Assembly: GCA_016278515.1 (NCBI GenBank)
Contig: JADQBR010000053.1
Span: 1 to 64,000 of the forward strand
DNA from: Bacillota bacterium
Lineage (GTDB): Bacteria > Bacillota > JADQBR01
Reading direction: 5' to 3'
DNA: 64,000 bases
The notes under the pieces are model-generated. The model was not told the origin of the DNA and made no database searches. It worked only from the letters and a program-made list of their open reading frames with translations. Position 1 is the stretch's first letter. Each line of letters begins with the position of its first letter. This document shows, piece after piece, positions 13,861 to 58,806 of the stretch. The position numbers and the translations under genes are program-made.

Positions 13861-13862
13861 TT
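13839..13862. other. Prophage left junction (attL) at the 3' end of ssrA
   Basis: Host-type sequence stops at the CCA end of ssrA (13860) and phage sequence begins. The recombinase coding frame crosses this boundary and ends in the T-arm of ssrA, so the phage attP should carry an identity block covering at least part of the last 22 bases. The matching attR lies beyond the window, so the core cannot be delimited. Confidence 0.6.
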
Positions 13863-15338: not shown

Positions 15339-15352
15339 GATTTCCTCCATGG

Positions 15353-44386: not shown

Positions 44387-44410
44387 TAATAAGAAATGCG
44401 AGGCGATTGA

Positions 44411-45490
44411 ATGACTGATATTAAAACACCGAGCATACCGGAAGACATTCGTGCTCTTATAAGTGTTTACCGTAAAGCACAAGTGAAGTTAGTAGAAATC
44501 ATTGCTACACAACAAGCTAAAGGTAATGTAACTCAATATAGAATGGCTATTCTTCGCCGGGTTAGTGCAGAGATTGAACTGCTGAATGAAGAAGCAGAAA
44601 AATGGGCTAATGAAGTAATCCCCAAATATTATAATAAAGGAGTTGAGACTGTTAATAACTTAATGGGGGAAGAAGGCATTACCTTATCTGGAGAGTTTGC
44701 TGGACTGCACAAAGATGCCATTAATTTATTGGTGCTAAATACATTGGATGATCTCCGAGGATCACATGAGTTTATTGGTAGAATTGTTCAGGATCAGGTA
44801 AGGGAAGCTGGAATACAGGCAGTTACACAAAAGATATCCACTGGATCTACAGTCAAAGAAATGCAAAAGCAGCTGAGACAAAACTTGATTGACTTGGGAT
44901 TTAAAGGTATCAAGGATAAAAGAGGACGTTATATTGACTTAGATGCATATGCAGGAACAGTTGCCCGCAGCACAACTAGGGAGGCAACAAACAAAGCTAC
45001 AATCAACCAGCTGCAGGGAAATGGATATGACTTGGTGAAAATGAGTGAGCATTTAACTACCTGTCCCATTTGTGCACCTTTGCAAGGGAGAGTATATAGC
45101 ATCAGCGGCAACAGCAATGAGTACCCTCCTCTTTATAAAGCGCACACTGGGATTCATGCAAACATTCACCCGAACTGTAAACATGTGCTAACGCCATATA
45201 TCCCGGAGTTGGCCGATAGTTCGGAAGCGGACAAAGAATTTAGCAACCGGCCGTTTGATATTGACCCTAGAAGTAGGCGACAGAAAGAAGCTTACGAAAA
45301 AGCACAACAGCGGAATAGGGAATTGCGGCGGGATAGAAACCAGTGGCAGAGGTATAGGATGGCAATGCCCGAGGATACTCCTAAGACCTTTGCAGGTTTT
45401 AGAAGGTCTAAGTTGGCTAATAGTGAGAACTTCAAACAATTGGAGAGCAATTATCGCAGCATAATGATTAAGGAAGGAAGGAAAGGCTAG
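44411..45490 (+). CDS. Phage head morphogenesis / minor capsid protein (SPP1 gp7-like)
   Basis: The 359 residues end in the gp7/Mu gpF signature: T-T-R-E-A-T-N-K-A, C-P-I-C-A-P-L-Q-G-R-V-Y ... N-I-H-P-N-C-K-H. The N-terminal half is helical. Such proteins bind portal and are ejected with DNA. Its end overlaps the leftward gene at 45487 by 4 bp. Confidence 0.9.
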   Translation: MTDIKTPSIPEDIRALISVYRKAQVKLVEIIATQQAKGNVTQYRMAILRRVSAEIELLNEEAEKWANEVIPKYYNKGVETVNNLMGEEGITLSGEFAGLHKDAINLLVLNTLDDLRGSHEFIGRIVQDQVREAGIQAVTQKISTGSTVKEMQKQLRQNLIDLGFKGIKDKRGRYIDLDAYAGTVARSTTREATNKATINQLQGNGYDLVKMSEHLTTCPICAPLQGRVYSISGNSNEYPPLYKAHTGIHANIHPNCKHVLTPYIPELADSSEADKEFSNRPFDIDPRSRRQKEAYEKAQQRNRELRRDRNQWQRYRMAMPEDTPKTFAGFRRSKLANSENFKQLESNYRSIMIKEGRKG

Positions 45491-45735
45491 GAACTTTTGC
45501 AACCGACAACATAAACACCGGATAGTTTGGGATAGCAGTATGTGATGGGCATCCCTAAATATTCTTCAGGATATTCATACCAACATTCTCTGTGAAAACG
45601 ATGGCTGGCCTTTCTGCCAAGATAGATGTGACAAGGTTTAAGCCCTTGTTTTTTTAATATCCCTATTTGGTTGTGAATTTCGTTATGAATTGATGCGTAG
45701 ATACCCTTGTTAAAACCTTTGGAATACTTATCCAT
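45487..45735 (-). CDS. Leftward hypothetical protein inserted in the head operon
   Basis: Start at ATG 45735 on the minus strand; 82 residues beginning M-D-K-Y-S-K-G-F-N-K-G-I-Y. Later C-H-I-Y-L-G-R-K-A-S-H-R-F and E-Y-L-G-M-P. No family. A leftward gene within the rightward head operon, next to a headless + strand frame, suggests an inserted moron. Its ribosome binding site (TGGTGA) is weak. Confidence 0.55.
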   Translation of the reverse strand: MDKYSKGFNKGIYASIHNEIHNQIGILKKQGLKPCHIYLGRKASHRFHRECWYEYPEEYLGMPITYCYPKLSGVYVVGCKSS

Positions 45736-45878
45736 ATTATCACCAATGGAACTATTCGCCAAAAACTGAGCATGTTCCTGTTAAAAGCGAGGAAGATATA
45801 GTTGATAGTTTAGCAACTGGTTTTTTGCAGGTTGTTAGAGACAACCCTGAATTAATAAAACTGGCCCAGGAGGCCTAA
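45714..45878 (+). pseudogene. 5'-truncated remnant of a small head-region gene
   Basis: A frame of 54 codons without an ATG, GTG or TTG before its last third encodes W-N-Y-S-P-K-T-E-H-V-P-V-K-S-E-E-D-I-V and D-N-P-E-L-I-K-L-A-Q-E-A before TAA, just upstream of the scaffold ribosome binding site. It reads like a real C-terminus. The start may have been lost when the leftward gene inserted. Confidence 0.4.
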
Positions 45879-45892
45879 GAAGGAGGAGCTAG

Positions 45893-46630
45893 ATGCTCTA
45901 TTATGATTTTTTAAAGAAAAAAAGAACTATGGACCTGCAGATGTTTGCTGAAGACCCACCGCCAGGTGGTGGAGACAGTGGAGGTTATTCTGCGCAATAC
46001 GTCAGTGATCTTCGCGATGAGAATGCCAATTGGCGGAAGAAACTTCGTGCCAAGGAAGAAGAGGCAGAGGGTTTACAGAAAAAGATTGATGACGTCAACA
46101 AGACCAACAAAGAACTGCAGGATCAAAACGATGCTTTCCTGGTGGAAGCTCGTCAGGTTCTTGGGCTTGATGCCAACACGGAATCACAAAAAGTACTTGA
46201 GAAAGTAAAAGAAATTAGCAGTGGTTCAACCGAGACCACCAAAAAGGCCCAGGAGGCCCTTAGAAAGTCAGCGTTTATGACTTCTGCTACTAAGCAGGGA
46301 ATTGATCCTAAAGTGACTGAAGATGCTTACAAGCTAGCTGACTTTAATCATGTAAAAGTGGATCTGGAATCCATGTCAGTGTTCCCGGTGGACAAGGACG
46401 GAAAGCAAGTAACTAAAGAAGATAAGCCGGTTACTGGCCTCGACTCCCTGGTGGAAGAGATGGTCAAAGAAAAGCCTTATTTAGCGGGCAAGAAACAAAC
46501 CCAAATAGGTGGCGGTAGTAATCCGCCAGGTGGGGGAGAAACACCTCCTGAGGATGGCTATGGCAAGCAGTTGGCAGCTAGAAAAGCTGAGCAAGTTAAG
46601 AGTCAAGGTGAAAGTTCATACTTTAAGTAA
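45893..46630 (+). CDS. Phage scaffolding protein
   Basis: The 245 residues begin with a short hydrophilic end. A long coiled coil follows (N-W-R-K-K-L-R-A-K-E-E-E-A-E-G-L-Q-K-K), then Gly/Pro-rich and Lys-rich tails (G-G-G-S-N-P-P-G-G-G-E). This is the DUF4355-type scaffold that sits before decoration and capsid genes. AAGGAGGAG precedes the ATG. It guides capsid assembly and is later lost or cleaved. Confidence 0.85.
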   Translation: MLYYDFLKKKRTMDLQMFAEDPPPGGGDSGGYSAQYVSDLRDENANWRKKLRAKEEEAEGLQKKIDDVNKTNKELQDQNDAFLVEARQVLGLDANTESQKVLEKVKEISSGSTETTKKAQEALRKSAFMTSATKQGIDPKVTEDAYKLADFNHVKVDLESMSVFPVDKDGKQVTKEDKPVTGLDSLVEEMVKEKPYLAGKKQTQIGGGSNPPGGGETPPEDGYGKQLAARKAEQVKSQGESSYFK

Positions 46631-46660
46631 GAAAAAGATTTTCTATAGGGGGAATAAATA

Positions 46661-47380
46661 GTGAAATTCAAATCTACAAGCTATTCCGGAACTGCTGAAA
46701 TTTTAAAGTTTCCCGATCATTATGTAGGAATTGCTGTAACGGTCAGCGATGCCGGTATTGTTGCTAATGCTGATGGAAAGAAAATAGTTTCTAAAGGGAC
46801 CATTGTTGGTGGTGCAAATGCTTCTGTACTGGCTGATGACACTCAGAAAGTCACCGAAAAAAATACTCAGGCTGTAGCGTCAAGTCTAACTATTGATTGT
46901 GCTAATGCTAACGCTGATATTTTAGTAACTGCTAAAGTGACTGGAGCAGACGGTGATGACATCAAAGTTGAATTAAAAGATCCCGCGGGAAATGACCAGG
47001 CGTTGGCAATCAGCATTGTGGGCGACACTATTGTGGCTTCTTTAGCAACTGGTCCAGCTGGAGCTATCACTAGTACGGGCCAAGAGGTAATTAACGCCAT
47101 CAATGCCCACCTGGTAGCGAAGGATTTGGTGGTTGCATCGTTACCGGACGGCCATGATGGAACTGGTGTGGTAGAAGCCAAAGCCGCAGCTAACTTAGCA
47201 AACGGTAGTGACGGTACTGCTAGTGACGCTGAAGGTGTACTGCTAAATGATGTTGATGTTACTGAGGGAGATGCGTCAGGTGCAATGATAATCCAAGGCT
47301 ATATTGCCACAAACAAAATCCCCTCGGCACCTGCTGCGGATGCCGTCGAAGCACTGAAAATGATAGAGTTTATTAAGTAA
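46661..47380 (+). CDS. Head decoration-like protein
   Basis: GTG start; 239 residues. The first 60 and last 40 residues (I-V-S-K-G-T-I-V-G-G ... G-A-M-I-I-Q-G-Y-I) resemble the small head-decoration family. A middle insertion of about 110 residues rich in Ala, Gly, Asp and Thr looks like a beta-rich display domain. It directly precedes the capsid gene. Confidence 0.7.
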   Translation: MKFKSTSYSGTAEILKFPDHYVGIAVTVSDAGIVANADGKKIVSKGTIVGGANASVLADDTQKVTEKNTQAVASSLTIDCANANADILVTAKVTGADGDDIKVELKDPAGNDQALAISIVGDTIVASLATGPAGAITSTGQEVINAINAHLVAKDLVVASLPDGHDGTGVVEAKAAANLANGSDGTASDAEGVLLNDVDVTEGDASGAMIIQGYIATNKIPSAPAADAVEALKMIEFIK

Positions 47381-47406
47381 ATATTTTTTTAGAGGAGGAA
47401 TAAATA

Positions 47407-48462
47407 ATGCCGACTATTTTTGATTTGGTAAATGCACGAGAAATAGCAACTTACTATACAGAGGCACCGACACTTAATGTGCCGTATCTTGGTGCAGAAC
47501 TTTTCCCGCCTGAAAGGCAAATGGGGCTTGACCTTAGCTGGATAAAGGGAAGTCGCGGTGTTCCTGTCGCATTGAAACCGTCTGAATTTGATGCCAAGGC
47601 AACTCTTCGCGATCGGATCGGCGTTGACAAGATCGAAACTGAAATGCCGTTTTTCCGTGAAGCAATGAGAATTGGTGAAAAAGATCGCCAGGAGATTCTA
47701 AAGGTAATGGCTGCATCTAACAGTTCTCTGTTAATGCCATTAATCAATCGTATCTATGATGATGCCGGAAATCTTGTAGCTGGTGCTCAGGTTAATGCTG
47801 AAAGGATGCGCATGCAGTTGTTGTCCACTGGTTTGATTAACATTTCTGCAAACCGTGTCGCTTACACTTACGATTATTTGATGCCTGCTGACCATAAGGA
47901 AACTATTGCGCAGGCTGCTGATAAGTGGTCAGATACTGCAAACTCTACTCCTATTCAGGACATTCAGGGCTGGCAGGATAAAATTGAGGGAGATACTGGT
48001 ACCCGTCCAATTAGAGCAGTTTGTACACGCAAGACATGGAACTATCTACTTGAGAACAAGTCTATTAAGCTTGATTTGAACCCGGCTGGTGGTCAGAATA
48101 TCATTCTGACTGATTCTATGCTGAAACAGTATTTGGTAAGTAAGCTCGGATTGACCGTTGCAGTGTATAACAAGAAATTTGCTGTAGAGGTTGGAGGCGC
48201 ATCTACGCTTTTCTTCCCGGATGACGTATTTAGCCTCATTCCAGACGGTAACCTAGGAAACACCTACTTCGGGACCACTCCGGAAGAAGCAGACCTATTG
48301 AGCGGCGGAACTGACGCCCAGGTAGAGATTGTTAATAACGGAATTGCTGTGACTACCATCAAGGAACCGCATCCTGTGAATATTCAAACCATAGTATCCG
48401 CCATTGCTCTACCAAGTTTCGAGCGTATTGATGAAATCTTTATTGCTACAGTACACAGCTAA
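47407..48462 (+). CDS. Major capsid protein
   Basis: The 351 residues show the HK97-fold order of the major capsid E group: N-arm with I-F-D-L-V-N-A-R-E-I-A, then L-F-P-P-E-R-Q-M-G-L-D-L-S-W-I, the spine helix and the C-terminal axial region (E-P-H-P-V-N-I-Q-T-I-V). GAGGAGG precedes the ATG. A terminator-like hairpin follows, as often after capsid genes, to give high capsid mRNA levels. Confidence 0.92.
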   Translation: MPTIFDLVNAREIATYYTEAPTLNVPYLGAELFPPERQMGLDLSWIKGSRGVPVALKPSEFDAKATLRDRIGVDKIETEMPFFREAMRIGEKDRQEILKVMAASNSSLLMPLINRIYDDAGNLVAGAQVNAERMRMQLLSTGLINISANRVAYTYDYLMPADHKETIAQAADKWSDTANSTPIQDIQGWQDKIEGDTGTRPIRAVCTRKTWNYLLENKSIKLDLNPAGGQNIILTDSMLKQYLVSKLGLTVAVYNKKFAVEVGGASTLFFPDDVFSLIPDGNLGNTYFGTTPEEADLLSGGTDAQVEIVNNGIAVTTIKEPHPVNIQTIVSAIALPSFERIDEIFIATVHS

Positions 48463-48470
48463 AGTCAGTG

Positions 48471-48503
48471 GAGTAGGGGCATCGCCCCCTACTCTATTGT
48501 TTT
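48471..48503 (+). terminator. Terminator after the capsid gene
   Basis: GAGTAGGGGC pairs with GCCCCCTACTC around an ATC loop, followed by TATTGTTTTT. Likely partial, with readthrough into connectors. Confidence 0.75.
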
Positions 48504-48521
48504 TAAAGGAGGGCTAATGTC

Positions 48522-49004
48522 GTGGATACAGATGCTAATGTAAAAGTTAAGCCATTGACACCGGTAAAATATAAAGGGGAACACTATAAAATCGGCCAGG
48601 AGCTGATGATAGACATTGTTGATTATGAATATCACAAGGACCTGTACGAACTAGTTGGATATAACACCTCTGTTTTCAACCAGGAGGGCATGGATGATCT
48701 GAGCGTGTTTAGGAAGCCTTATCTGTTGGAAATTGCTAAAATGCTTCATGTTTTTGGTTACAGCAACATGACCAAAAAGGAATTGACGACTGCTATCGAA
48801 AATAAGTTAGATCAGCCAGAAGTTGCTAGGCAAAGTAAAGGTGGCAATGAAGGAAGCCAGGCTCAAGGCCAGAATCCAACATCAGAAGAACTCGAAAGCC
48901 TAACAGATGAGGAGCTCATGCAGTTGGCCCGTGAAAAAGAAATAGAAGACTACGAAGAAATGAACAGGGAAGAACTGCTTATTCTTTTATCTGAGGAAGA
49001 GTAG
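48522..49004 (+). CDS. Structural-region protein with two SAP/HeH-like motifs
   Basis: GTG start; 160 residues. Two short helix-extended-loop-helix units are visible (K-P-Y-L-L-E-I-A-K-M-L-H ... K-K-E-L-T-T-A-I and E-E-L-M-Q-L-A-R-E ... R-E-E-L-L-I-L-L), with a Gly/Gln linker between them. These resemble SAP or Rho-N units seen in head-tail linker proteins. Role unproven. Confidence 0.65.
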   Translation: MDTDANVKVKPLTPVKYKGEHYKIGQELMIDIVDYEYHKDLYELVGYNTSVFNQEGMDDLSVFRKPYLLEIAKMLHVFGYSNMTKKELTTAIENKLDQPEVARQSKGGNEGSQAQGQNPTSEELESLTDEELMQLAREKEIEDYEEMNREELLILLSEEE

Positions 49005-49013
49005 GTGTAGATT

Positions 49014-49367
49014 ATGCCAACTGTAAACGAAGCAGATGCTTATTTCGCCACTAGATTAAATAGTGATGTATGGGATATTGCAACTGATTCTAATAAGACG
49101 AAGGCTCTTGCGACAGCCGAAAGACAAATAAAGAGCCTAAGGCTGAAATTAAGCTATGACGGAACAAAGATTACTCATGCCATCTATGAGCAGGCCATCT
49201 GGCTGCTTGAAGGCAGCAAGCGCGCAAAACTTCAGCAGGAAGGAGTAAAATCAGCAAGTATGGGCGGTATGAGCGAGACGTTTAAAGGCGGCAAAGATGC
49301 CTTTATCTCTCCCCAAGCTAGGCTCCTTCTTGAAACTGAAATGGTAAAAGCGGTGAATATTACATGA
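49014..49367 (+). CDS. Head-tail connector (DnaT-like / gp15-type adaptor)
   Basis: The 117 residues match the phage adaptor family often labelled DnaT-like: E-A-D-A-Y-F-A-T-R ... A-L-A-T-A-E-R-Q-I ... A-I-Y-E-Q-A-I-W-L-L ... I-S-P-Q-A-R-L-L-L-E. It extends the portal channel. Its stop overlaps the next start (ATGATAG). Confidence 0.8.
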   Translation: MPTVNEADAYFATRLNSDVWDIATDSNKTKALATAERQIKSLRLKLSYDGTKITHAIYEQAIWLLEGSKRAKLQQEGVKSASMGGMSETFKGGKDAFISPQARLLLETEMVKAVNIT

Positions 49368-49660
49368 TAGAAGTATATCTAAATCAAACAGCAGGGTGGA
49401 AACAGAAGACAGGCAGCAATAAATACAATGAACCCCAGCACGCTGATCAAGTTGGTATTCCTGTTAGATGGCAAGGGAAACGTAGGATGGTCAAAAACGA
49501 GCAAGGTGAGGAAGTAGTTAGTGAAGTAAAGGTGTTCACCAAAGACCCAGTATCACTTGGTGACCGTTTGATTTATAACGGCCGAGAATGGCCTGTTGTA
49601 TCAGTGCTAGAAGTAAGAGGGCTAGATGGGGAAATAGAGTACTACGAGGTGGCGTTATAA
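49364..49660 (+). CDS. Head closure / head-tail stopper protein
   Basis: The 98-residue protein is beta-rich: V-R-W-Q-G-K-R-R-M-V ... G-D-R-L-I-Y-N-G-R-E-W-P-V-V-S-V. This matches the SPP1 gp16-like stopper family that plugs the portal after packaging. Its stop overlaps the next start (TAATG). Confidence 0.8.
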   Translation: MIEVYLNQTAGWKQKTGSNKYNEPQHADQVGIPVRWQGKRRMVKNEQGEEVVSEVKVFTKDPVSLGDRLIYNGREWPVVSVLEVRGLDGEIEYYEVAL

Positions 49661-50088
49661 TGGACGTTTCTGTTGAAGTTGAAGGATTGAAGCAATTAGA
49701 GCGTCAGTTTAACAAAAAAGCGGAGAAGTTAGAAAGGGGAAATTCAAAGGCTTTGACTGATGTGGTGCTTGACTTAGCAGGGGAATCAATCAGGAAAGCC
49801 CCGGTAGACCTAGGCGATTTAAGGGGTTCTGGCCAAGCTGCAATTGAAGGTCAAGTGATAGCTAAAGGAAACAAAGATGGAAACTTGACTATGTCTGGGA
49901 TAGCCCCTAAAAATGCTCAATCAGGCAGTGTAGAGTTTACTGCGCCATATGCACGAATTCAGCATGAAAGGCTAGACTTTAAACACCCCCAAGGCGGCGA
50001 GGCGAAATATCTTGAAAATCCATTTCGAAAAAACAGCAAAAAGTATATTGATCATATTGCTGATGCTGCAAAAAAATCAATTGAGTAG
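49660..50088 (+). CDS. Neck protein, HK97 gp10-like
   Basis: Start at ATG 49660; 142 residues. The pattern L-K-Q-L-E-R-Q-F ... A-P-V-D-L-G-D-L-R-G-S ... A-P-Y-A-R-I-Q-H-E-R ... A-K-Y-L-E-N-P-F is that of HK97-gp10-type tail-joining proteins. It sits in the usual place between stopper and tail terminator. Confidence 0.88.
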   Translation: MDVSVEVEGLKQLERQFNKKAEKLERGNSKALTDVVLDLAGESIRKAPVDLGDLRGSGQAAIEGQVIAKGNKDGNLTMSGIAPKNAQSGSVEFTAPYARIQHERLDFKHPQGGEAKYLENPFRKNSKKYIDHIADAAKKSIE

Positions 50089-50097
50089 GTGTTTATT

Positions 50098-50481
50098 ATG
50101 CTGCTAGACGATTTAGGTGATTATCTTGAGACTCAAAGCTTAGGGGTTGTAAATACAGATATTTTCTTGGGAAATCAGCCAGATAAGCCTGACAATTGCG
50201 TTACTTTATTTGAATATTCGGGTGATCCGCCTGATCACTCGCGGGACTCACGCATTGACAGACCTGGGCTTCAGGTTATTGCTAGAAATACAAGTTATGT
50301 AGATGGAAGGCAAAAACTACAGCAAATTCAAAACCTAATAGATGGGCTAAACGGAGTGACTATCAATGGAACACGTTATATATCAATATTTGCGAATCAA
50401 AGCCCAATGCCTTTGGGTAAAGACGAATCTGGACGCATGGAATGGAGTCAAAACTATTCTGTTAGGGTAGATGCGTTATAG
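50098..50481 (+). CDS. Tail terminator (minor capsid / gp17-like)
   Basis: Start at ATG 50098; 127 residues. The pattern G-D-Y-L-E-T-Q-S-L-G ... L-F-E-Y-S-G-D-P-P ... R-P-G-L-Q-V-I-A-R ... I-S-I-F-A-N-Q-S-P-M-P matches the phage minor capsid or tail terminator group (gp17-like). It probably caps the tail tube and joins it to the neck. Confidence 0.8.
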   Translation: MLLDDLGDYLETQSLGVVNTDIFLGNQPDKPDNCVTLFEYSGDPPDHSRDSRIDRPGLQVIARNTSYVDGRQKLQQIQNLIDGLNGVTINGTRYISIFANQSPMPLGKDESGRMEWSQNYSVRVDAL

Positions 50482-50494
50482 GAGGCTTCGGATC

Positions 50495-50722
50495 ATGGTC
50501 AAAAAAACCGATAGGAAAACCGATGGGGATAAGTATTATGCGGTCGGGAAATGGCGGGGACTAAAAAAATATAGCTGCAATCTATGTCCTTTCGATACAC
50601 TTAGTGAAACAGAGATAGAGCTGCATATCAAAAATGTTCACACGCCAAAGCCCGAACGAAAACCCATTACGGTACCAATATTAGATAGGTATGGAAACTT
50701 GGTCAACGAACGGGAGGTGTAA
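50495..50722 (+). CDS. C2H2-type zinc-finger phage protein
   Basis: Start at ATG 50495 with GGAGG 9 nt upstream; 75 residues. A classical C2H2 arrangement is visible: C-N-L-C, twelve residues, then H, four residues and H (E-L-H-I-K-N-V-H). A proline-rich tail follows. Unusual within a neck-tail gene cluster; it may bind DNA or another structural protein. Confidence 0.65.
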   Translation: MVKKTDRKTDGDKYYAVGKWRGLKKYSCNLCPFDTLSETEIELHIKNVHTPKPERKPITVPILDRYGNLVNEREV

Positions 50723-50725
50723 TAA

Positions 50726-51076
50726 TTGGCGAGGACAAACCTTACCAAGACAAACGCGCCTGGTAGATACGCAACAACAGGTGCTAACCTAACTCTTGCA
50801 AATGGCGACGTAGTTAACGGAAACCAGTTTAAATCTACCGGGAAAGAACTGTTAGTAGCAAGAAATACTGATGGCGTAACGCCATACTATCTGAGTGTTA
50901 CGAGTGCTGCAGATCCTTACGGACGGACCGGAGACATCAGCCAGCATGACTTAGCACCTGGGGAAACCCATGTATTCGGGCCCTTTCCTGTTCAAGGATG
51001 GCAGCAGTCGGACGGCAATATCTATGTAAACGCAGAGAATGCGGCTATTGAGTTGGCAGTAGTAGTGCTGCCTTAA
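50726..51076 (+). CDS. Small structural protein, unknown
   Basis: TTG start with GGGAGGTG; 116 residues, beta-rich, Thr/Asn/Gly-rich (T-T-G-A-N-L-T-L-A-N-G-D-V-V-N-G). It has the segment L-A-P-G-E-T-H-V-F-G-P-F-P, which is found in phage and bacterial beta-sandwich proteins. Placed between tail terminator and tail tube genes, so probably a virion protein. Confidence 0.6.
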   Translation: MARTNLTKTNAPGRYATTGANLTLANGDVVNGNQFKSTGKELLVARNTDGVTPYYLSVTSAADPYGRTGDISQHDLAPGETHVFGPFPVQGWQQSDGNIYVNAENAAIELAVVVLP

Positions 51077-51105
51077 TTTTTGATCCTAAATAAGGAGGAA
51101 TGACA

Positions 51106-51537
51106 ATGTCTGAAGCTATAAGTGCATTTGGAACCTTGCTAAAAATTGGTGATGGTGGGGGCCCAGAAAGCTTTACTGCAATAGCAGAGGTAAAAGATAT
51201 AAGCGGCCCGAGGCTTAGCCTTGATACTGAAGATGTAACCAGCCATAGTTCACCAGGTAGCTGGGAAGAGCACATTGGAACTGTTCTTAGATCCGGAGAG
51301 GTTACTTTTGAGGTTAACTATTTACCTACGCACGCAACACATAACGCCAGCACGGGATTGATAGCTGATATGGTTAATAAGACTAAGAGAAACTTCCAAT
51401 TGGTATTTCCTGACGCTGGTAACACAACATGGGGTTTAGCTGCCTTAGTTACAGGGTTTGAACCGTCAGAGCCGGTTCAGGGTGTGCTGGGCGCATCTAT
51501 TACCTTAAAAATAACTGGGCAGCCGTCACTAGTATAA
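51106..51537 (+). CDS. Major tail tube protein
   Basis: I chose the ATG at 51106 because the one at 51100 touches the AGGAGG ribosome binding site; 143 residues. The tail tube pattern is clear: A-E-V-K-D-I-S-G-P, D-T-E-D-V-T-S-H, G-E-V-T-F-E-V-N-Y and a C-terminal L-K-I-T-G-Q-P. It polymerises around the tape measure. Confidence 0.9.
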   Translation: MSEAISAFGTLLKIGDGGGPESFTAIAEVKDISGPRLSLDTEDVTSHSSPGSWEEHIGTVLRSGEVTFEVNYLPTHATHNASTGLIADMVNKTKRNFQLVFPDAGNTTWGLAALVTGFEPSEPVQGVLGASITLKITGQPSLV

Positions 51538-51567
51538 GAAAGCAATTAACTGGAGGGGCTAAAAGAG

Positions 51568-51966
51568 ATGGGTAAATTATTGAGTAAAGACGACATACTA
51601 AGTGCTAAGGATATAAAAACAGAAAGAGTTGCCGTCCCTGAGTGGGGCGGTTCTGTGTTAGTAAAGGGTTTAACTGGCGAGGAAAGGGATGCCTTTGAAG
51701 AGACTATTATTCAGACAAGAGGTAAAAGCCAAAAGGTTAATATGAAAAATGCCAGGGCAAAGCTTGTTGTTAGATCAGTAGTAAATGAGAAAGGCAATCA
51801 TATTTTTGCTGACGAGGACGTCAATGCATTAGGCAAAAAATCTGCTGCTGCACTCGAAAAGGTTTTTGAGGTTGCACAGCGCTTATCTGGGTTAACTAAG
51901 GAAGATGTTGAGGAGCTGGCAAAAAACTCCGAAACAGACCAGAGCGAAAGTTCTGGTTTAAACTAG
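51568..51966 (+). CDS. Tail assembly chaperone G-type (upstream frame)
   Basis: The 132 residues begin M-G-K-L-L-S-K-D-D-I-L and include V-L-V-K-G-L-T-G-E-E-R-D-A-F-E, as in siphovirus chaperones. It ends at G-L-N-TAG. The last codons are GGT TTA AAC TAG, which contain the -1 slippery heptamer T-TTA-AAC, so a fraction of ribosomes should make the G-T fusion. Confidence 0.88.
   Translation: MGKLLSKDDILSAKDIKTERVAVPEWGGSVLVKGLTGEERDAFEETIIQTRGKSQKVNMKNARAKLVVRSVVNEKGNHIFADEDVNALGKKSAAALEKVFEVAQRLSGLTKEDVEELAKNSETDQSESSGLN
51957..51963 (+). promoter_or_regulatory. Programmed -1 ribosomal frameshift site TTTAAAC
   Basis: T-TTA-AAC in the zero frame, directly before the stop. After slipping, reading continues as CTA GCA CTA GCT TTT in the -1 frame. 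The heptamer is the best-known strong -1 slip sequence, and tail chaperone genes of tailed phages commonly use this mechanism. Confidence 0.88.
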
Positions 51967-52271
51967 CACTAGCTTTTGGTAAACCGGTTGAACAGCTTCA
52001 AAGGGAAATAAGCAGTAGGGAATTTGCAGAATGGATGGCTTACGCCCATGTAGAACCTTTTGGTGAGGATAGGGATGACTGGCGAGCTGCAATGATGACA
52101 GCAATGGTAGCTGAAGTTAATCGCAATCCTAAATCACGAAATAAGCCTTTTAAGCCTGAAGAATTTTTATTGAAGTTTAAGGATCCGGAAGAGGAGCAAT
52201 CATGGGAAACGCAGTTGGAGTTTGTGAAGATGTTTAATGCTGCATTTGGAGGTACAGTTGGGAAGAAGTAA
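51963..52271 (+). CDS. Tail assembly chaperone T-type extension (made by -1 frameshift)
   Basis: From the slip site the frame is open to 52271 and encodes L-A-L-A-F-G-K-P-V-E-Q-L-Q-R, then F-A-E-W-M-A-Y-A-H-V-E-P-F-G. This matches the second chaperone domain of Gram-positive siphophages. An ATG at 52035 could start only the last 78 residues. The protein is expected as a fusion to the G product, helping tape-measure folding. Confidence 0.88.
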   Translation, partial: LALAFGKPVEQLQREISSREFAEWMAYAHVEPFGEDRDDWRAAMMTAMVAEVNRNPKSRNKPFKPEEFLLKFKDPEEEQSWETQLEFVKMFNAAFGGTVGKK

Positions 52272-52293
52272 GCCCCCGATTTGGGGGCTTTTG
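52270..52293 (+). terminator. Rho-independent terminator after the chaperone genes
   Basis: AGCCCCC-GATTT-GGGGGCT followed by TTTGG. It separates the chaperone genes from a leftward gene and from the tape measure. Confidence 0.8.
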
Positions 52294-52294
52294 G

Positions 52295-52612
52295 TTATGG
52301 GAAAGCTTTCTCTTGTGCTGATTGGTGGGGTTCTCTGATATACTTCCATACTTTCCCACACTTTTCACACTTCCTAAGTTTTTTCGGTTGAGTAAAGGCG
52401 CTTAAAATAGTGAGCGCACCAAGAATCCAAAAAAACTTTGATAAGAAACCGAATCCTAAGCAAATAACTCCAATTACAACACTGAAAATTTTCATACCTT
52501 TTGATTGAGCAAATTTTACTTTCTTTTTCCAATGTGAAGAACCACATTTAGGGCAAGTTGTCCTATCACTACGTTTCCATTGGGCCTTACTTAGAGGAAC
52601 GTTGTTTTCCAT
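52295..52612 (-). CDS. Leftward zinc-ribbon membrane protein (moron)
   Basis: The 105 residues have a C-P-K-C-G and a C-E-K-C-G pair flanking two hydrophobic helices (F-S-V-V-I-G-V-I-C-L-G-F-G and I-L-G-A-L-T-I-L). GGAGGTG lies upstream on the minus strand, with a TATAAT in a plausible place (near 52633-52638). It is between chaperone and tape-measure genes and reads against them, as expected for a lysogenic-conversion gene. Function unknown. Confidence 0.7.
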   Translation of the reverse strand: MENNVPLSKAQWKRSDRTTCPKCGSSHWKKKVKFAQSKGMKIFSVVIGVICLGFGFLSKFFWILGALTILSAFTQPKKLRKCEKCGKVWKYIREPHQSAQEKAFP

Positions 52613-52671
52613 ACTTACACCTCCAATGTAATTATATGTTAAATTATTCTATTTGAAAAGGGGGGTCAATT

Positions 52672-54618
52672 ATGGCTACTCTCGCATCACTTATGGTAAC
52701 AATAGGGGCAAATACCAGTGGCTTCCGAAAAGGTGTTCAGAACTCAAATAAATCGTTACAACAACTCGAACAAAGAATGGATAATACTAAGCGCCTAGCA
52801 AAAACTCTAGCGGTTGGGGTAGTGGCTGTTGGAGCGGCAGCTAGTGGCGTGGGTTTTAAAGCGGTACAACTGGCAGCAAAGATGGAGCAAACGGAAGTTG
52901 CGTTTACAACATTATTAGGTAGTGGTCAAAAGGCAGAAAAAATGTTAAAAGAATTGCAGGACTTTTCTGCCACGACTCCTTTTCAGTTTCCCGGGCTAGC
53001 AGACTCTGCAAGACTTCTGATTACTATGGGATTTAACGCTGAACAAGCTGTTCCTGCAATGAGGACCGTTGCTGATGCAGTAGCAGCTGCCGGCGGTGGG
53101 CAAGCAGAGTTGCTCGGCGTATCCCGTGCCCTTGGTCAGATCCAAGCGAAGGGCAAAGTCAGTGCTGAGGAATTAATGCAACTTGCAGAACGTGGTATTC
53201 CAGCGCAAAAAATACTTCAAGCAGAATTAGGGCTGACAGGGGAGCAGGTAGCTGATATTGGTAATCAAGGGATAACCGCAACTGAGGGCATTGAAGCACT
53301 ATTGAGAGGCTTGTCAGAAAAATTTGACGGTGCAGCCGATGATCAGGCTCGAACTGTATCCGGTATGTGGTCAACCGTAAAAGACAATGTAACCCTAACA
53401 TTAATTCCTCTTGGGAAAATTATAATTGATACCTTTAATTTAAAACCAGCCATGCAAAATGCTATTGGTTGGCTTACGGAACTAAGAGTTGAATTGGTTA
53501 GTATTAAAAATACCATAGAGCGCGGTGGCGTTAAGGCCGCAATTGACCAGTTTATCCCAAATAACATGCAAGCAACAATTGTGGGGGTGACGGGTGCAGT
53601 AGCAGGGTTAGCAACGGCTATACTTATCACTCTCCTTCCAGCGCTTATGGCTACGGCTGCGGCTTGGTGGGCTACTCTGGCGCCCATGTTACCATATATA
53701 GCTGTCGGTACTGCAATCGCCTTGGTGGTATTTACTATATACAAAAACTGGAAAAACTTTGGTGACTTCATGTCAGGAATTTGGGGTGTCGCTGCATCTG
53801 CAGCCGAAAGTGCCAACATAAAAATCCAAACCGGCTGGAACAAAACGAAACAGGTAGTTTATTCTGTCATAAAGTCTATTCTTGATGCGGTAGCGCCGCT
53901 ATTAGATTGGCTTCCCGGGAGACTTGGTGATAGTTTTGAAACAATGAGAAATGCAGTTAATTCAAAGCTTCAAGATGTAGGGAATAATCTTGATGATTTG
54001 TCCGAAAGAGGAAAGCAAAACCAAGAAAGAATGGCTCAGTCTCTAAATAGCTTAGGCGATAGCTGGGATAGCCTCAAAAAAGGCATAGTGAACAGTGTAT
54101 CAGGAGTAACAAAGACTTTCTCTGATGCAGCTGGCGGGGCTAATGCTTTTGCCGATGCTATGAATAATGTCGGGCAAACAGCTCAAGATATTACGCCTGA
54201 TCTAGAGGGTGTGGGTAGTGCTGCGGCTGCAGCTGCAAAAGCCCAGCAAAGCCAAGTTCCTATTTTAGATATGCTTGATTTTAAACTCAACAGACTTGAT
54301 ACTAGGTGGCAAAAATATAAATTAACCACGGATACTGTTAAAGATAGCGTCGAATGGTTAGCACAGAAAAACGAGTACCTTCAGCAAAAAATGAATTTGG
54401 TCTCGGAGCGAACTACTATCTTGCGGCAAAAGCTCAAAGATGCAGATGTTGCAACAAACGGTTGGACGGACCAATCAATGCAATTGGCTGAACAGCTTGA
54501 TAGAGTATCCCTAAAAGAACTAGAGTTAAAGAATTCTATAAGAAGATACAACCAAAGCCTTAACGGAACAAGGCAGTGGTTTAAGCAGCTTGCAGAAGTT
54601 AGTAATGGAAACCGGTAA
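52672..54618 (+). CDS. Tape measure protein, N-terminal part (frame broken near its end)
   Basis: The 648 residues have the tape-measure N-terminus (G-A-N-T-S-G-F-R-K-G-V ... A-K-M-E-Q-T-E-V-A-F-T-T-L-L-G-S-G), repeats of helical segments and two hydrophobic stretches (about 305-360). From codon 623 the sequence turns into R-R-Y-N-Q-S-L-N-G-T and stops. The neighbouring frame from 54542 continues the coiled coil smoothly, so a one-base insertion or a +1 frameshift lies near 54540. Confidence 0.9.
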   Translation: MATLASLMVTIGANTSGFRKGVQNSNKSLQQLEQRMDNTKRLAKTLAVGVVAVGAAASGVGFKAVQLAAKMEQTEVAFTTLLGSGQKAEKMLKELQDFSATTPFQFPGLADSARLLITMGFNAEQAVPAMRTVADAVAAAGGGQAELLGVSRALGQIQAKGKVSAEELMQLAERGIPAQKILQAELGLTGEQVADIGNQGITATEGIEALLRGLSEKFDGAADDQARTVSGMWSTVKDNVTLTLIPLGKIIIDTFNLKPAMQNAIGWLTELRVELVSIKNTIERGGVKAAIDQFIPNNMQATIVGVTGAVAGLATAILITLLPALMATAAAWWATLAPMLPYIAVGTAIALVVFTIYKNWKNFGDFMSGIWGVAASAAESANIKIQTGWNKTKQVVYSVIKSILDAVAPLLDWLPGRLGDSFETMRNAVNSKLQDVGNNLDDLSERGKQNQERMAQSLNSLGDSWDSLKKGIVNSVSGVTKTFSDAAGGANAFADAMNNVGQTAQDITPDLEGVGSAAAAAAKAQQSQVPILDMLDFKLNRLDTRWQKYKLTTDTVKDSVEWLAQKNEYLQQKMNLVSERTTILRQKLKDADVATNGWTDQSMQLAEQLDRVSLKELELKNSIRRYNQSLNGTRQWFKQLAEVSNGNR

Positions 54619-55081
54619 CGTCATGGAAGCGGCTAAAATACATTCTTTAAGCAAGACATTTGATAAAACCGGCAACATAACTTCGAAGGATTTAGACGCC
54701 GTCAGAAGTGGTAATTATAAAAGAAGTTTAGACAAAGCTAAAGATAATCCTGCTTGGCAATCAAGCGTAAATAAATATCTTGATAGTGGCGCTGGCTTGA
54801 CAGAAGCAATTGAAAGGGCAAGGCAAAATGTTTCAAAGTTGCCATCATTTGATACAGGTGGCGAAGTACCAGGGGCCAAAGGATCACCGCAGCTTATCAT
54901 GGCCCACGGTGGAGAAACTGTTTTACCTACACATAAAAATAATTATTCTACTGGAATAGATTACGATCGCTTAGGGCAAGCAGTAGCAGCTGCATTACAA
55001 GGCGCTAAAGTTGAGGGTGAAGTAACAGTAAATATTGAGCAAGGAAGCGGGAAAATGCGTCAGTTCAGACTGGCGTTTTAA
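54542..55081 (+). CDS. Tape measure protein, C-terminal part (second frame)
   Basis: Reading from 54542 in the +1 frame gives E-D-T-T-K-A-L-T-E-Q-G-S-G-L-S-S. It ends with the classic tape-measure tail F-D-T-G-G-E-V-P-G-A-K-G and A-H-G-G-E-T-V-L-P-T. The total length would be about 802 residues. It may be translated only by frameshift, or by reinitiation at the ATG 54605, which has no good ribosome binding site. A sequencing error is the simplest explanation. Confidence 0.7.
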   Translation, partial: EDTTKALTEQGSGLSSLQKLVMETGNVMEAAKIHSLSKTFDKTGNITSKDLDAVRSGNYKRSLDKAKDNPAWQSSVNKYLDSGAGLTEAIERARQNVSKLPSFDTGGEVPGAKGSPQLIMAHGGETVLPTHKNNYSTGIDYDRLGQAVAAALQGAKVEGEVTVNIEQGSGKMRQFRLAF

Positions 55082-55099: not shown

Positions 55100-55558
55100 A
55101 TGGCATTACCAAAAACTACGGATCCGGCATTACCAAGTGTAGGTGGGTTAGGTTACGTTGGCGAAGCGGATGCTAATGCTCAGATTACCACAGCAAGCGG
55201 AAATTACATTCAAAACGCCGCAGGTGTATGGGTACCCGTAAGTGCAACAAACCCCATGCCTGTTGCTGATGCGGAGGCGATTAAGTCTGCTCCGGTAACC
55301 GGTATGGCTACGGTCAATGCAACTGCGGCTGAAGTGTTTGCCGGTGCATTACGGTTATCGGGCCGCAGAAAAATGGTAATTAAAAATGAAAGCGATACTT
55401 TGAGAGTGCGCATTGGCAGCGCATCTGTCACTCAGCAAAACGGTTTTCCGTTGGAGCCGGGTGCGGTTTTTGAGGTTGACTTTGACATTAATACTGACGT
55501 GCCTATATACGCAATAGCAGAAGGCGCATCTGTCGAGGTTGCAGTAATTGAGTACTAA
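55100..55558 (+). CDS. Tail-region structural protein, unknown
   Basis: ATG behind ATGGAGGTG; 152 residues. The N-terminal region is Ala/Thr/Gly-rich with G-G-L-G-Y-V-G-E-A-D-A-N. The C-terminal part is a beta-rich domain (S-G-R-R-K-M-V-I-K-N-E-S-D-T-L-R-V-R-I-G). It lies upstream of the DGR target. Probably a tail component; no family recognised. Confidence 0.55.
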   Translation: MALPKTTDPALPSVGGLGYVGEADANAQITTASGNYIQNAAGVWVPVSATNPMPVADAEAIKSAPVTGMATVNATAAEVFAGALRLSGRRKMVIKNESDTLRVRIGSASVTQQNGFPLEPGAVFEVDFDINTDVPIYAIAEGASVEVAVIEY

Positions 55559-55581: not shown

Positions 55582-55800
55582 ATGGCTAAATATAAAACTG
55601 TAATTGAAACGCAAGAAGAAAGCACGCTCCGCGTTACGTGGGAAGATGATATTGGTAATGTAATTGTGAGCGGCGAAAAGAAAGTTAAGGGTGGAAATAA
55701 TGAGGCCAAGAAGCTAGAGAAAACCTTTGCTAAAGATTTAAAGAATAATTTTAATGAGCGTTTTCCCAAGCCTCCTGCCCCGGAAGGAGGAATGATATAA
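55582..55800 (+). CDS. Small tail-region protein, unknown
   Basis: Seventy-two residues with GAGGGAGGG upstream. K-Y-K-T-V-I-E-T-Q-E-E-S-T-L-R-V-T-W-E-D-D is a beta-rich start; the rest is Lys-rich. It directly abuts the DGR target gene (stop at 55798-55800, ATG at 55801), so it could be a chaperone or partner. Confidence 0.5.
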   Translation: MAKYKTVIETQEESTLRVTWEDDIGNVIVSGEKKVKGGNNEAKKLEKTFAKDLKNNFNERFPKPPAPEGGMI

Positions 55801-56931
55801 ATGAAGTACGTTAGCGGACCCTACACTCAAGGACGAATTGCTCAAAACATAATCGAAGCTGAAACCGCGTTGACAAATCGGTGGAATCGTGGCGGGGCAA
55901 TTACGACTACTGCCGAACAGCAGGATTGGCAGCAACGCATTGAAGATTTGTCGTTTGGCAGAAACACTGTGATGTTTGGAACAAGCACAGAAGCAGCCGG
56001 TTACCCGGCGGTGATGGTAAGATTTCCGTCAGTCGCATTAGACAGCCTAGGCTTTAGCTGGGTAAGCCAGATACATCCCGCATTTATAGTTAACGGTTCA
56101 ATCAAGCCGGAGCTTTGGATTGCCAAGTTTAAGAGCGCATACGTTGGTAGTGTCGGCGTAGACGGCGGTGTAGTCAGCCTTCGAGGGTTCGACCCCGGAA
56201 ACAGCAAAGACTTTGATGACAATTTAAGCTATCACGCTGCAATGGGCACCGGGTTCCATTTGCAGACAATGATTGAACATGCGCTCGTAGCTACGCTTTG
56301 TAAAAAGCAAGGCTTTTGGCCGCGAGGCAACAATAACTATGGGAAAGACGTTAGCGTGGCCTCGGAGCTTGGCAGTCCTACACATCATGCTGATGCTACA
56401 AAGGTGGGCCGCACAGCAACCGGCAGCGGCCCTCTTGCTTGGTCTCATGACGGCACGCCATTTGGCTTGGCTGACGTAAACGGAAACGTCTACGAATGGT
56501 GCGGCGGCATGAGGTTAGTAGACGGTGAAATCCAGATCCTCGAAAATAACAATGCCGCCGATAACACCGCGGACCAAACCGGTACTGGCGCATGGAAAGC
56601 CATTTTGCAGGATGGTAGCCTAGTAGCGACCGGCACGGCGGATACACTTAAATATAACGCAACAAACGCCGATGGCAGCGGGACTATAGAAATTAATACC
56701 GCGGTTATAAATCAATCAGATGGTTCAACATATGCGTACAATGCGTTTGAAACAACTGCTACAGCTGCAGGGGTAACTGTACCTGATATTTTAAAACAGT
56801 ATGCGCTAGCACCTATTGACGCTGAGCACGGTGGCGACAGGCACTATATGAAAAACGCAGGGGAGCGGCTCCCGATCGTCGGCGGCTGCTGGTCCTCACG
56901 TCGTATGCCGGCGTGGTCTTTCTGTACCTGA
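55801..56931 (+). CDS. DGR variable protein (FGE/C-type-lectin fold), truncated by a frameshift in VR
   Basis: Likely tail receptor-binding protein. The 376-residue reading has an N-terminal tail-attachment region, then the formylglycine-generating-enzyme-like fold used by DGR targets (G-L-A-D-V-N-G-N-V-Y-E-W-C-G-G). It ends in the variable repeat with R-L-P-I-V-G-G-C-W-S. The VR has a one-base deletion between 56896 and 56897 relative to the template. The frame therefore runs into TGA at 56929. With the base restored the gene would end at TAA 56990 with Y-A-G-V-V-F-L-Y-L-S-Y-L-R-S-N-V-L-T. There is an internal 80-residue Ala/Asn/Thr-rich insertion. Confidence 0.88.
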   Translation: MKYVSGPYTQGRIAQNIIEAETALTNRWNRGGAITTTAEQQDWQQRIEDLSFGRNTVMFGTSTEAAGYPAVMVRFPSVALDSLGFSWVSQIHPAFIVNGSIKPELWIAKFKSAYVGSVGVDGGVVSLRGFDPGNSKDFDDNLSYHAAMGTGFHLQTMIEHALVATLCKKQGFWPRGNNNYGKDVSVASELGSPTHHADATKVGRTATGSGPLAWSHDGTPFGLADVNGNVYEWCGGMRLVDGEIQILENNNAADNTADQTGTGAWKAILQDGSLVATGTADTLKYNATNADGSGTIEINTAVINQSDGSTYAYNAFETTATAAGVTVPDILKQYALAPIDAEHGGDRHYMKNAGERLPIVGGCWSSRRMPAWSFCT

Positions 56932-56979
56932 GCTACTTGCGCTCCAACGTGCTCACGAGCGTCGGTGCTCGCCTGGCTT
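56864..56979 (+). repeat. DGR variable repeat (VR)
   Basis: 116 bp matching TR at 57425-57541 (117 bp). The template adenine sites carry T, G or C in 14 cases and one is deleted. One change is at a template T (56916, T to G). The last 19 bases (GTCGGTGCTCGCCTGGCTT) are identical to TR apart from its first base, as expected of the initiation-of-mutagenic-homing region. Confidence 0.95.
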
Positions 56980-57020
56980 TTGTTTTGTAATCTGCTATCT
57001 GAAGAACTGTAATCTGAAAG

Positions 57021-57036
57021 GCGGGCGATAGCCCGC
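57021..57036 (+). other. GC-rich hairpin downstream of VR
   Basis: GCGGGC-GATA-GCCCGC, a perfect 6-bp stem with a four-base loop, 41 bp after VR. A 9-bp direct repeat TGTAATCTG flanks the VR end and this hairpin (56986 and 57008). In BPP-1 a hairpin of similar size after VR stimulates retrohoming. Here the distance is larger, and the hairpin is also just before the avd start. Confidence 0.6.
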
Positions 57037-57042
57037 TAAGGA

Positions 57043-57405
57043 GTGACCATCATCGAAGGACTTAAGATCTTAGCAAAGACCAGAGAAATGATCGGCTATG
57101 GTTATGCAGCAATCGAGCAATTTCCGAAGCGTGCCAAGTTTAGCTTCGGCAAAGAAATGGAGCAGATAATGCTTAACACCGTCCGGTTGGTTATCCGGAC
57201 TAACAAGAAATATTACAAGAAGACAACGCTGCAGGAATTAGATATTGAGATTGCAACTCTCAAGCTTTATGTACGCATGGCACATGAAATGAGATTGTCA
57301 AATAGCCACCCGCCATTCTTGCCCATGAAAAAGTATGAAATATGGTCTAAAAAGTTAGACGAGATCGGCAGGATGTTAGGTGGCTGGATAAAAAGCCAGA
57401 AATAA
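57043..57405 (+). CDS. avd: Avd, DGR accessory variability determinant
   Basis: The 120-residue protein has the four-helix-bundle pattern of Avd and 23S rRNA intervening-sequence proteins: L-K-I-L-A-K-T, I-E-Q-F-P-K-R, K-K-Y-Y-K-K-T-T-L-Q-E-L-D-I-E and an end R-M-L-G-G-W-I-K-S. It is basic and forms a pentamer that binds RT and template RNA in known systems. GTG start at 57043; its AAGGA overlaps closely, so initiation may be weak or another start used. It lies between VR and TR. Confidence 0.9.
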   Translation: MTIIEGLKILAKTREMIGYGYAAIEQFPKRAKFSFGKEMEQIMLNTVRLVIRTNKKYYKKTTLQELDIEIATLKLYVRMAHEMRLSNSHPPFLPMKKYEIWSKKLDEIGRMLGGWIKSQK

Positions 57406-57424
57406 ATATAGGGGGTGTGCCGTT

Positions 57425-57541
57425 AGCGGCTCCCGATCGTCGGCGGCAACTGGAACAACACGTCGAATGCCGGCGTGTTCTATCTGAACCTGAACAACTT
57501 GCGCTCCAACGTGAACACGAACATCGGTGCTCGCCTGGCTT
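57425..57541 (+). repeat. DGR template repeat (TR)
   Basis: Non-coding 117-bp template for mutagenic retrohoming. In the VR frame it encodes an Asn-rich peptide (N-W-N-N-T-S-N-A-G-V-F-Y-L-N-L-N-N), since AAC codons give 15 amino acids after adenine mutation without stop codons. The frame is intact here, unlike in VR, so homing could repair the target. It is followed by a TGA. Confidence 0.95.
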
Positions 57542-57726
57542 GAGCCTCACCAGCCAGAAGTTATTAGCTCAAGGGCTAATATCCAGTGCATGAGGTATAA
57601 GGGGCACATCTCCTTGCCGACAGCCGTAAGGCAGGCAAAAAACTATATTGCCGGGAAGGTAGTTAGTAGCTCAAATGAGCGAAGGGTGCCACGCCCGGCT
57701 TACTATTAACAACAGGAGTTTTTGCT
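57542..57726 (+). other. TR-RT spacer, probable structured part of the DGR template RNA
   Basis: No gene. The spacer holds several inverted-repeat segments (for example TTGCC near 57612 and 57644, and TTAGCTC/GAGC pairs). In BPP-1 the region just after TR is part of the RNA that RT and Avd bind to prime cDNA. The same role is inferred here. Confidence 0.5.
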
Positions 57727-58806
57727 TTGAAAAGACATAACGACTTATATCAAAAGATTTACAGCTTTGAAAATCTTTATGAAGCATATAAAAGCGCAAG
57801 AAAAGACAAGAGTTACCGTGATGATGTTTTGAAATTCACCGCTAATTTAGAAGAAAATTTAATCACAATACAAAACGAATTAATTTGGAAGACATATGAA
57901 ATAGGAAAATACCGAGAATTTTACGTGTTTGAACCAAAAAAACGCTTAATTATGGCACTCCCGTTTCGGGACAGAGTAGTACAATGGGCAATCTACAGGT
58001 TATTAAATCCTATATTTGACATGTCTTTCATAGGACATAGTTATGCCTGCAGACAAGGTAAAGGCCCCCATAGCGCGGCAGACAAGCTGCAATACTGGCT
58101 TCGGTATTTGGATCGCAAAGAGGAAGAGTATTATTATTTAAAGTTAGATATCTCAAAATATTTTTACCGGGTGGATCATGAGGTAAATGACAAAATTATT
58201 CAAAGGAAAATAAAAGATCGCGACTTAATGTGGCTGCTTAGAAAATACTTCGAAAATGATGAGGTTCCTTTCGGTTTACCTCTTGGTGTTGAACCTGGAG
58301 AATGCACATGGTTTGAAAGGCTATTTGACAAAGGAATGCCGATTGGAGACTTAATGAGCCAGTTAAGAGCTAATATACAGCTTAATCCACTAGACCAGTT
58401 CTGTAAGCATGATTTGAAGCTTAGGCGCTATATAAGATACATGGACGACTTTATTATCCTTCATCACGACAAGAAGTATTTGCATTACATAAAAAACGAG
58501 ATAGAAAGCTTCTTGAATAATGAACTAGAATTACACCTGAACGATAAAACTTGTATTAGTCCGTGTAGCAAAGGGGTAAAGTTTGTTGGATACACCATTT
58601 TTGCCACGCATCGAAAAATGAAAAAGAAGACAGTTTTAAGGATGAAAAGGAGACTTAAATATTTACAGGAGGCTTACACAAAAGGCGAGGTTAGTTTTGA
58701 GAAAGTGAACGCAAGCGTACAGAGCTACCTTGGACTGTTAGAGCATTGTGACAGTTATAATTTACAAAAAAAGTTACTAGAAGCATTAGTTTTTGTGAGG
58801 AGGTGA
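57727..58806 (+). CDS. DGR reverse transcriptase
   Basis: Copies TR RNA with adenine-specific errors. TTG start at 57727 (CAGGAG upstream); 359 residues. Motif A is K-L-D-I-S-K-Y-F (Asp141), motif C is R-Y-M-D-D-F (Tyr238-Asp241), and motif 4 is G-M-P-I-G-D-L-M-S-Q (203-212). The G-x-x-x-S-Q in place of Q-G-x-x-x-S-P is the DGR hallmark. The following A-N-I-Q-L-N-P-L-D-Q-F is also typical. No maturase or endonuclease domain. The gene ends just before the next start (58811). Confidence 0.97.
   Translation: MKRHNDLYQKIYSFENLYEAYKSARKDKSYRDDVLKFTANLEENLITIQNELIWKTYEIGKYREFYVFEPKKRLIMALPFRDRVVQWAIYRLLNPIFDMSFIGHSYACRQGKGPHSAADKLQYWLRYLDRKEEEYYYLKLDISKYFYRVDHEVNDKIIQRKIKDRDLMWLLRKYFENDEVPFGLPLGVEPGECTWFERLFDKGMPIGDLMSQLRANIQLNPLDQFCKHDLKLRRYIRYMDDFIILHHDKKYLHYIKNEIESFLNNELELHLNDKTCISPCSKGVKFVGYTIFATHRKMKKKTVLRMKRRLKYLQEAYTKGEVSFEKVNASVQSYLGLLEHCDSYNLQKKLLEALVFVRR

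Follow-up and report, generated by a model that had tools for sequence, protein, structure and literature searches.

A diversity-generating retroelement with a frame-broken target gene in a siphophage-type prophage of a Bacillota bacterium

The 64,000-nucleotide (nt) stretch of Bacillota DNA analysed here, referred to as the window (positions 1 to 64,000 of contig JADQBR010000053.1, assembly GCA_016278515.1), very probably carries a diversity-generating retroelement (DGR) with an Avd protein and a TaqVP-type target, housed within an integrated prophage of the siphophage type. On the + strand the target open reading frame (ORF), a variable repeat (VR), avd, a template repeat (TR) and a reverse transcriptase (RT) gene follow one another in the order found in Bordetella phage BPP-1. 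All of these parts are directly established, as are the adenine-limited divergence of VR and TR, the position of the RT within the DGR clade and the fold of an intact homologue of the target. The element belongs to a known kind, and the frameshift in its target is the sole unusual part. A sequence-only reading of the window had described a complete DGR, which holds for the retroelement, every part of which is present, and not for the target, whose ORF is truncated in the assembly. The target, the Avd-like gene, the TR and an RT with YMDD and G-x-x-x-S-Q motifs, which that reading had listed in BPP-1 order, were all located at their coordinates.

Parts of the retroelement and adenine-limited divergence

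The cassette consists of the following features.

55801-56931, + strand: DGR target gene, 376 amino acids as read, frame broken in the VR; phrog_2889, E 3.2e-87
56864-56979, + strand: VR, 116 nt, aligned with the TR
57021-57036, + strand: hairpin GCGGGC-GATA-GCCCGC with a GRNA-type loop, 41 nt 3' of the VR
57043-57405, + strand: avd (accessory variability determinant), GTG start; bAvd, NF033474, phrog_3206
57425-57541, + strand: TR, 117 nt with 26 adenines; encodes LPIVGGNWNNTSNAGVFYLNLNNLRSNVNTNIGARLA in the target frame
57541-57698, + strand: structured RNA RF02921 (RT-14), 65.1 bits against a gathering score of 48.1, E 1.2e-6
57727-58806, + strand: DGR RT, 359 amino acids, TTG start; RVT_1 (E 3.4e-22), phrog_1423

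When the two repeats are locally aligned, 14 of the 26 TR adenines are substituted in the VR (eight to T, four to G and two to C), and a single substitution, from T to G, lies outside the adenines. Such a concentration, with 14 of 15 substitutions at adenines, has P = 8.5e-9 if changes are spread evenly, and it bears out the adenine-limited variation that the sequence-only reading had put forward as support for a DGR. That reading had further named one T-to-G change as the only disagreement of VR and TR outside adenines; it is right about that substitution and overlooked a 1-nt deletion in the VR, which is considered below.

Searches based on the RT yielded 72 loci (given L numbers here), with VR/TR pairs mapped in most. 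Counting that of the window, 56 distinct pairs were compared, and in them the changes affect 673 of 1350 template adenines, against 32 of 5098 other bases. Some loci are near-identical from TR to RT and have no differences at all in the TR, and yet their VRs differ at 15 positions (L010 and L042, 99.5% identity), 14 positions (L068 and L071, 99.8%) or 12 positions (L011 and L012, 98.7%). Since these close relatives differ mainly in the VR, their sequences suggest that DGRs of the family are active in nature. Elsewhere in the set, Desulfosporosinus acididurans (genome G005, contig C4; L006, L081 and L083) has a DGR near 273516-275319 and a second VR near 236905-237020, whose 10 differences from the TR all fall at adenines; it seems that two targets separated by about 37 kb share a single TR.

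The RT matches phrog_1423 with an E value of 2.8e-138, and its best match among solved structures is 8ub7_A, presumably the RT of BPP-1 (E 2.5e-48, 168 bits), with the best group II intron RT reaching 77 bits. In a tree of 40 RTs, a 99/97 branch separates 32 DGR RTs, including those of BPP-1 and the window, from the group II RTs and the other outgroup rows, so that the grouping which had been suggested as a check on the RT was recovered. It is exceedingly unlikely that the gene is a group II intron or retron RT lying beside a chance repeat. The protein does score 126 bits with a group II RT model (TIGR04416), but this is far under the cut-off of 300, and its clade holds BPP-1 and excludes the group II RTs. 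Moreover, its GDLMSQ motif conforms to GxxxSQ, whereas GxxxSP is the form in those outgroup rows where a motif was recognised, the gene is accompanied by avd, TR and VR, and a chance repeat is refuted by the adenine-limited divergence. A group II assignment was hence rejected on score, motif and tree placement, and a retron assignment on a score of 35.9 bits with NF038233 against a cut-off of 235. Two stretches of the window RT, GDLMSQ and LRANIQ, deviate from the GNLTSQ and LFANIY of most relatives. A second RT of the same genome (L001; G000 contig C16, 4376-5011) is group II-like, with YADD and one in-frame TAA, and is probably a broken intron RT.

The Avd protein, of a type that accompanies most phage DGRs, is recognised by the bAvd profile (E 6.2e-30), by NF033474 DivGenRetAVD (111 bits against a cut-off of 80) and by phrog_3206, 'Avd protein of DGR'; a comparison by sequence with solved structures gave no match. 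Between the TR and the RT gene, the match to RT-14 begins at the last base of the TR. The same RNA family, which reportedly comes from a 2017 paper, occurs in 18 other loci (L003-L008, L017, L023, L025-L027, L031, L036, L039, L041, L049, L051 and L062), all of which except L031 have a mapped TR; in these 17 loci the RNA begins at the earliest 7 nt ahead of the TR end and at the latest 1 nt past it. At the equivalent place BPP-1 has RF03022, 'Phage_DGR'. Since RT-14 starts at the TR end wherever both are mapped, its best interpretation is as the template-RNA spacer of DGRs, equivalent to RF03022; no earlier mention of a link between RT-14 and DGRs was met in a literature search that did not cover the original description of RT-14. 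In BPP-1 the spacer RNA takes up a fold, brings in the RT-Avd complex and supplies the adenine used for priming (PMC12875486).

A hairpin with a GRNA loop lies 3' of the VR in 37 of 68 loci and 3' of the TR in none of the 68. VR-side hairpins of this type are present at other phage DGR target sites and are needed for efficient retrohoming in BPP-1 (PMC3240598). In comparison with the published range, the window hairpin is somewhat removed from the VR (41 nt as against 4-34 bp) and has a short stem (6 bp as against 7-10).

Target protein and prophage setting

The target is 82-84% identical to that of L007 from Desulfoscipio geothermicus, which is intact and whose structural model (predicted local distance difference test, pLDDT, 92.8) matches TaqVP (5vf4) with template modelling (TM) scores of 0.81-0.85 and 37% identity. 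The window target itself scores 17.8 with Pfam FGE, under the cut-off of 23.3. DGR targets bind ligands through what is usually a C-type lectin fold, with the VR at the C-terminus. Through the modelled homologue, the FGE/C-type-lectin fold that had been proposed from the sequence is supported, and the intact target would be predicted to fold as a TaqVP-like C-type lectin of the FGE type. The features that surround the cassette are as follows.

13504-13860: transfer-messenger RNA (tmRNA) gene, ssrA
13849-13860, + strand: left attachment site (attL), core CCGCCTCCACCA, the ssrA 3' end; a 12-nt exact repeat flush with the tmRNA 3' end
68137-68148 of contig C45, beyond the window: right attachment site (attR), the matching 12 nt
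13839-15350, - strand: large serine recombinase (prophage integrase), ending inside ssrA; phrog_95 integrase, E 5.7e-123
52672-55081, + strand: tape-measure gene, apparently split; TMP_3 (E 4.1e-26) on the first ORF, phrog_12798
55100-55558, + strand: companion gene 1, 152 amino acids, the C-terminal 88 conserved; phrog_30212, homologues linked to targets
55582-55800, + strand: companion gene 2, 72 amino acids; homologues in 9 loci, also 5' of the target

The siphovirus-type prophage at ssrA that the sequence-only reading had described is supported by the serine recombinase, the 12-nt repeat and the head and tail genes. The distance from attL to attR gives a prophage of about 54 kb, and among its genes are those for the terminase, portal, capsid, connectors, major tail protein, tape measure and repressor. 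Matches of the recombinase to CcrB/XisF-type proteins are under the cut-off. In L019 (Eubacterium barkeri), tmRNA and permuted tmRNA models overlap at 11327-11841 on the - strand, about 2 kb beyond the DGR RT.

The cassette of the window has the tape measure on one side and tail genes on the other; that of L007 comes after the tape measure and Dit and before Tal, and that of L049 after baseplate genes. With cassettes placed among tail genes in all three, the tail tip, which had been named as the likely site of diversity, is a well-supported location for the target, albeit one deduced from gene position. The N-terminal 40 or so residues of the target are helical in the L007 model. Matches to them occur in 9 loci, which also carry homologues of both companion genes 5' of the target; some of these loci are one contig present in two collections. 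Both companion genes are confined to loci in which the target carries this N-terminal extension. From this distribution, the extension and the companions may form a docking module, the role of the companion genes possibly being in tail docking. Companion homologues were seen in L006, L007, L027, L049 and L051, with two copies of gene 1 in L006, and a model of companion gene 1 was too poor for use (pLDDT 52.6). Cassettes of this TaqVP type, accompanied by two companion genes, appear in more than one type of tail.

As with the DGR of a Thermus aquaticus prophage (TaqVP, 5vf4; PMC6328139), the element has a TaqVP-type target fold, a C-terminal VR, avd followed by the TR and a prophage location, but it differs in its host and tail module, in the N-terminal helical extension of the target, in the two companions and in the frameshifted VR. 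It shares with BPP-1 (mtd, avd, TR, brt; NC_005357) the gene order, the GxxxSQ and YMDD motifs and a GRNA hairpin after the VR. The spacer, however, is RF03022 in BPP-1 and RF02921 in the window, the target is TaqVP-like and not Mtd-like over its full length, and the RTs are only distantly related. The L007 element (NZ_FOYM01000042) has a similar target, both companions, the same VR position and a cassette in the tail module; in contrast to the window, its target is intact, with 18 substitutions at adenines and no indel, and its cassette sits between Dit and Tal instead of directly after the tape measure. The nearest RTs are those of the Bacillota loci L003, L004 (Caloramator australicus) and L023, at 64-67% identity, with Bacillus phage BalMu-1 at 56%, although the targets of L003, L004 and L023 have neither the N-terminal extension nor the companion genes.

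The frameshift in the target and its origin

Some observations weigh against a DGR in working order. The target runs out of frame inside the VR and meets a TGA stop codon at 56929-56931, 48 nt before the VR end. The tape-measure gene 5' of the cassette also looks frameshifted, and the prophage may be decaying with its DGR idle. Compared with shuffled sequence, the TR-to-RT region has only a moderate advantage in folding (z -1.9, with 11 of 200 shuffles doing as well), and no closely related strain with another VR for this element was found, the nearest RTs being 67% identical.

The VR is 1 nt shorter than the TR, with TCCTC at 56893-56897 facing AACAAC at TR positions 57454-57459. The lost base may be an A or a C, the neighbouring adenines also being changed. 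The deletion takes the target out of frame and thereby to its early stop: the protein reads LPIVGGCWSS and then an out-of-frame RRMPAWSFCT up to the TGA, while direct reading of the original frame leads to a TAA at 56988-56990, just past the VR. An ORF open through the VR is what would be expected of a working copy, without being a defining property of the family, and the window copy does not have one; in nearly all relatives with a complete target the ORF is open to a stop 4-30 nt past the VR. In the L007 model the lost part corresponds to the final strands of the lectin fold (375-377, 388-390 and 392-394), and it also includes the conserved L007 residues R381, G389 and A393. With the reading frame broken by a 1-nt deletion, a current function of the target is not supported for the window copy.

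Stop codons cannot be reached from the window TR by adenine changes alone, which agrees with the point that AAY codons are unable to turn into stops (PMC6328139). Six deletion events were seen in the VRs of the 56 pairs. Three of them lie in AACAAC (1 nt in the window, 2 nt in L027 and 3 nt in L039), and another 1-nt deletion, in L029, lies in a CCC run.

It is possible, on a tentative view, that a genuine deletion arose through the DGR itself, its RT having slipped by one base in AACAAC during the retrohoming event that wrote the current VR. The remaining adenines of the deleted run are all mutated in the VR alignment, and half of the six deletion events sit in this motif, but a deletion there is unsurprising as AACAAC is present in 50 of the 56 TRs, and L027, a short metagenome contig with three VR deletions, is probably error-prone. 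Slips in AAC repeats have been discussed for BPP-1, although in multiples of three, so that a 1-nt slip is an extension of what is published (PMC12875486). Moreover, the T-to-G change outside the adenines shows that other mutations have also reached the window VR.

An assembly artefact, with mixed VR variants collapsed into a chimaeric consensus, is also conceivable, if doubtful. The assembly is a draft in 167 contigs, diverse VRs are difficult to assemble, and the genome may come from a mixed sample, given that 8.8 kb of the prophage recur with 100% identity in a metagenome contig, L085. A mixture of VRs would not, however, explain the second apparent frameshift, in the tape-measure gene, and both frameshift sites lie outside long homopolymers. 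L085 (IMGVR_UViG_3300032097_000007) matches window positions 43995-52795 and ends at 52795, short of the cassette, and the reads of its source metagenome may contain the VR population of the window prophage.

It is rather unlikely that the lesion is an ordinary replication indel, in the VR as in the tape-measure gene, within a decaying prophage that no longer uses its DGR. The tape-measure ORFs at 52672-54618 and 54590-55081 overlap, with an apparent frameshift near 54541-54618, and the second has a tape-measure-like C-terminus without an evident start signal; relatives carry the tape measure as a single ORF, as in L103, where this C-terminus and the N-terminal match are joined. The RT end branch is also long (0.38, as against 0.10-0.16 in two sister RTs), and frameshifted RTs next to clean VR/TR pairs are known (PMC3521204). 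Yet the RT and avd ORFs of the window are intact, the RT deviates at 3 conserved columns only, the head, packaging and regulatory genes are present, and the VR has just one substitution outside the adenines.

Proposed retrohoming and the possible erasure of VR lesions

The chemistry of retrohoming would presumably be that of BPP-1. The RT-Avd complex would copy the transcript of avd, TR and RT-14 into complementary DNA (cDNA), placing random bases opposite template adenines, and the cDNA would then take the place of the 3'-terminal VR of the target, with the GC-rich end of the VR and the GATA-loop hairpin as guides. The replacement may thereby vary the ligand-binding face of a tail-tip protein that is presumed to be located in the virion and to bind a receptor. 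In the assembled copy, the deletion in AACAAC would deprive the lectin fold of its final strands. A new round of retrohoming would be expected to overwrite the lesion, as the TR is intact. Retrohoming in an engineered BPP-1 system fills in 18 nt that the target lacks (PMC12875486), and by analogy the VR lesion would in principle be erasable while the TR, avd and RT remain intact. A search of the whole genome (4.27 Mb, 167 contigs) gave no further copy of the TR or VR.

It is improbable, though worth stating, that a 1-nt slip made by the DGR switches the hypervariable tail protein off and that later retrohoming from the intact TR switches it back on. If true, the slip would amount to a phase switch that can be erased and that gets around the exclusion of stops built into the AAY codons. 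The deletion raises the question of whether DGRs both create and erase frame-breaking lesions that are beyond the reach of substitution.

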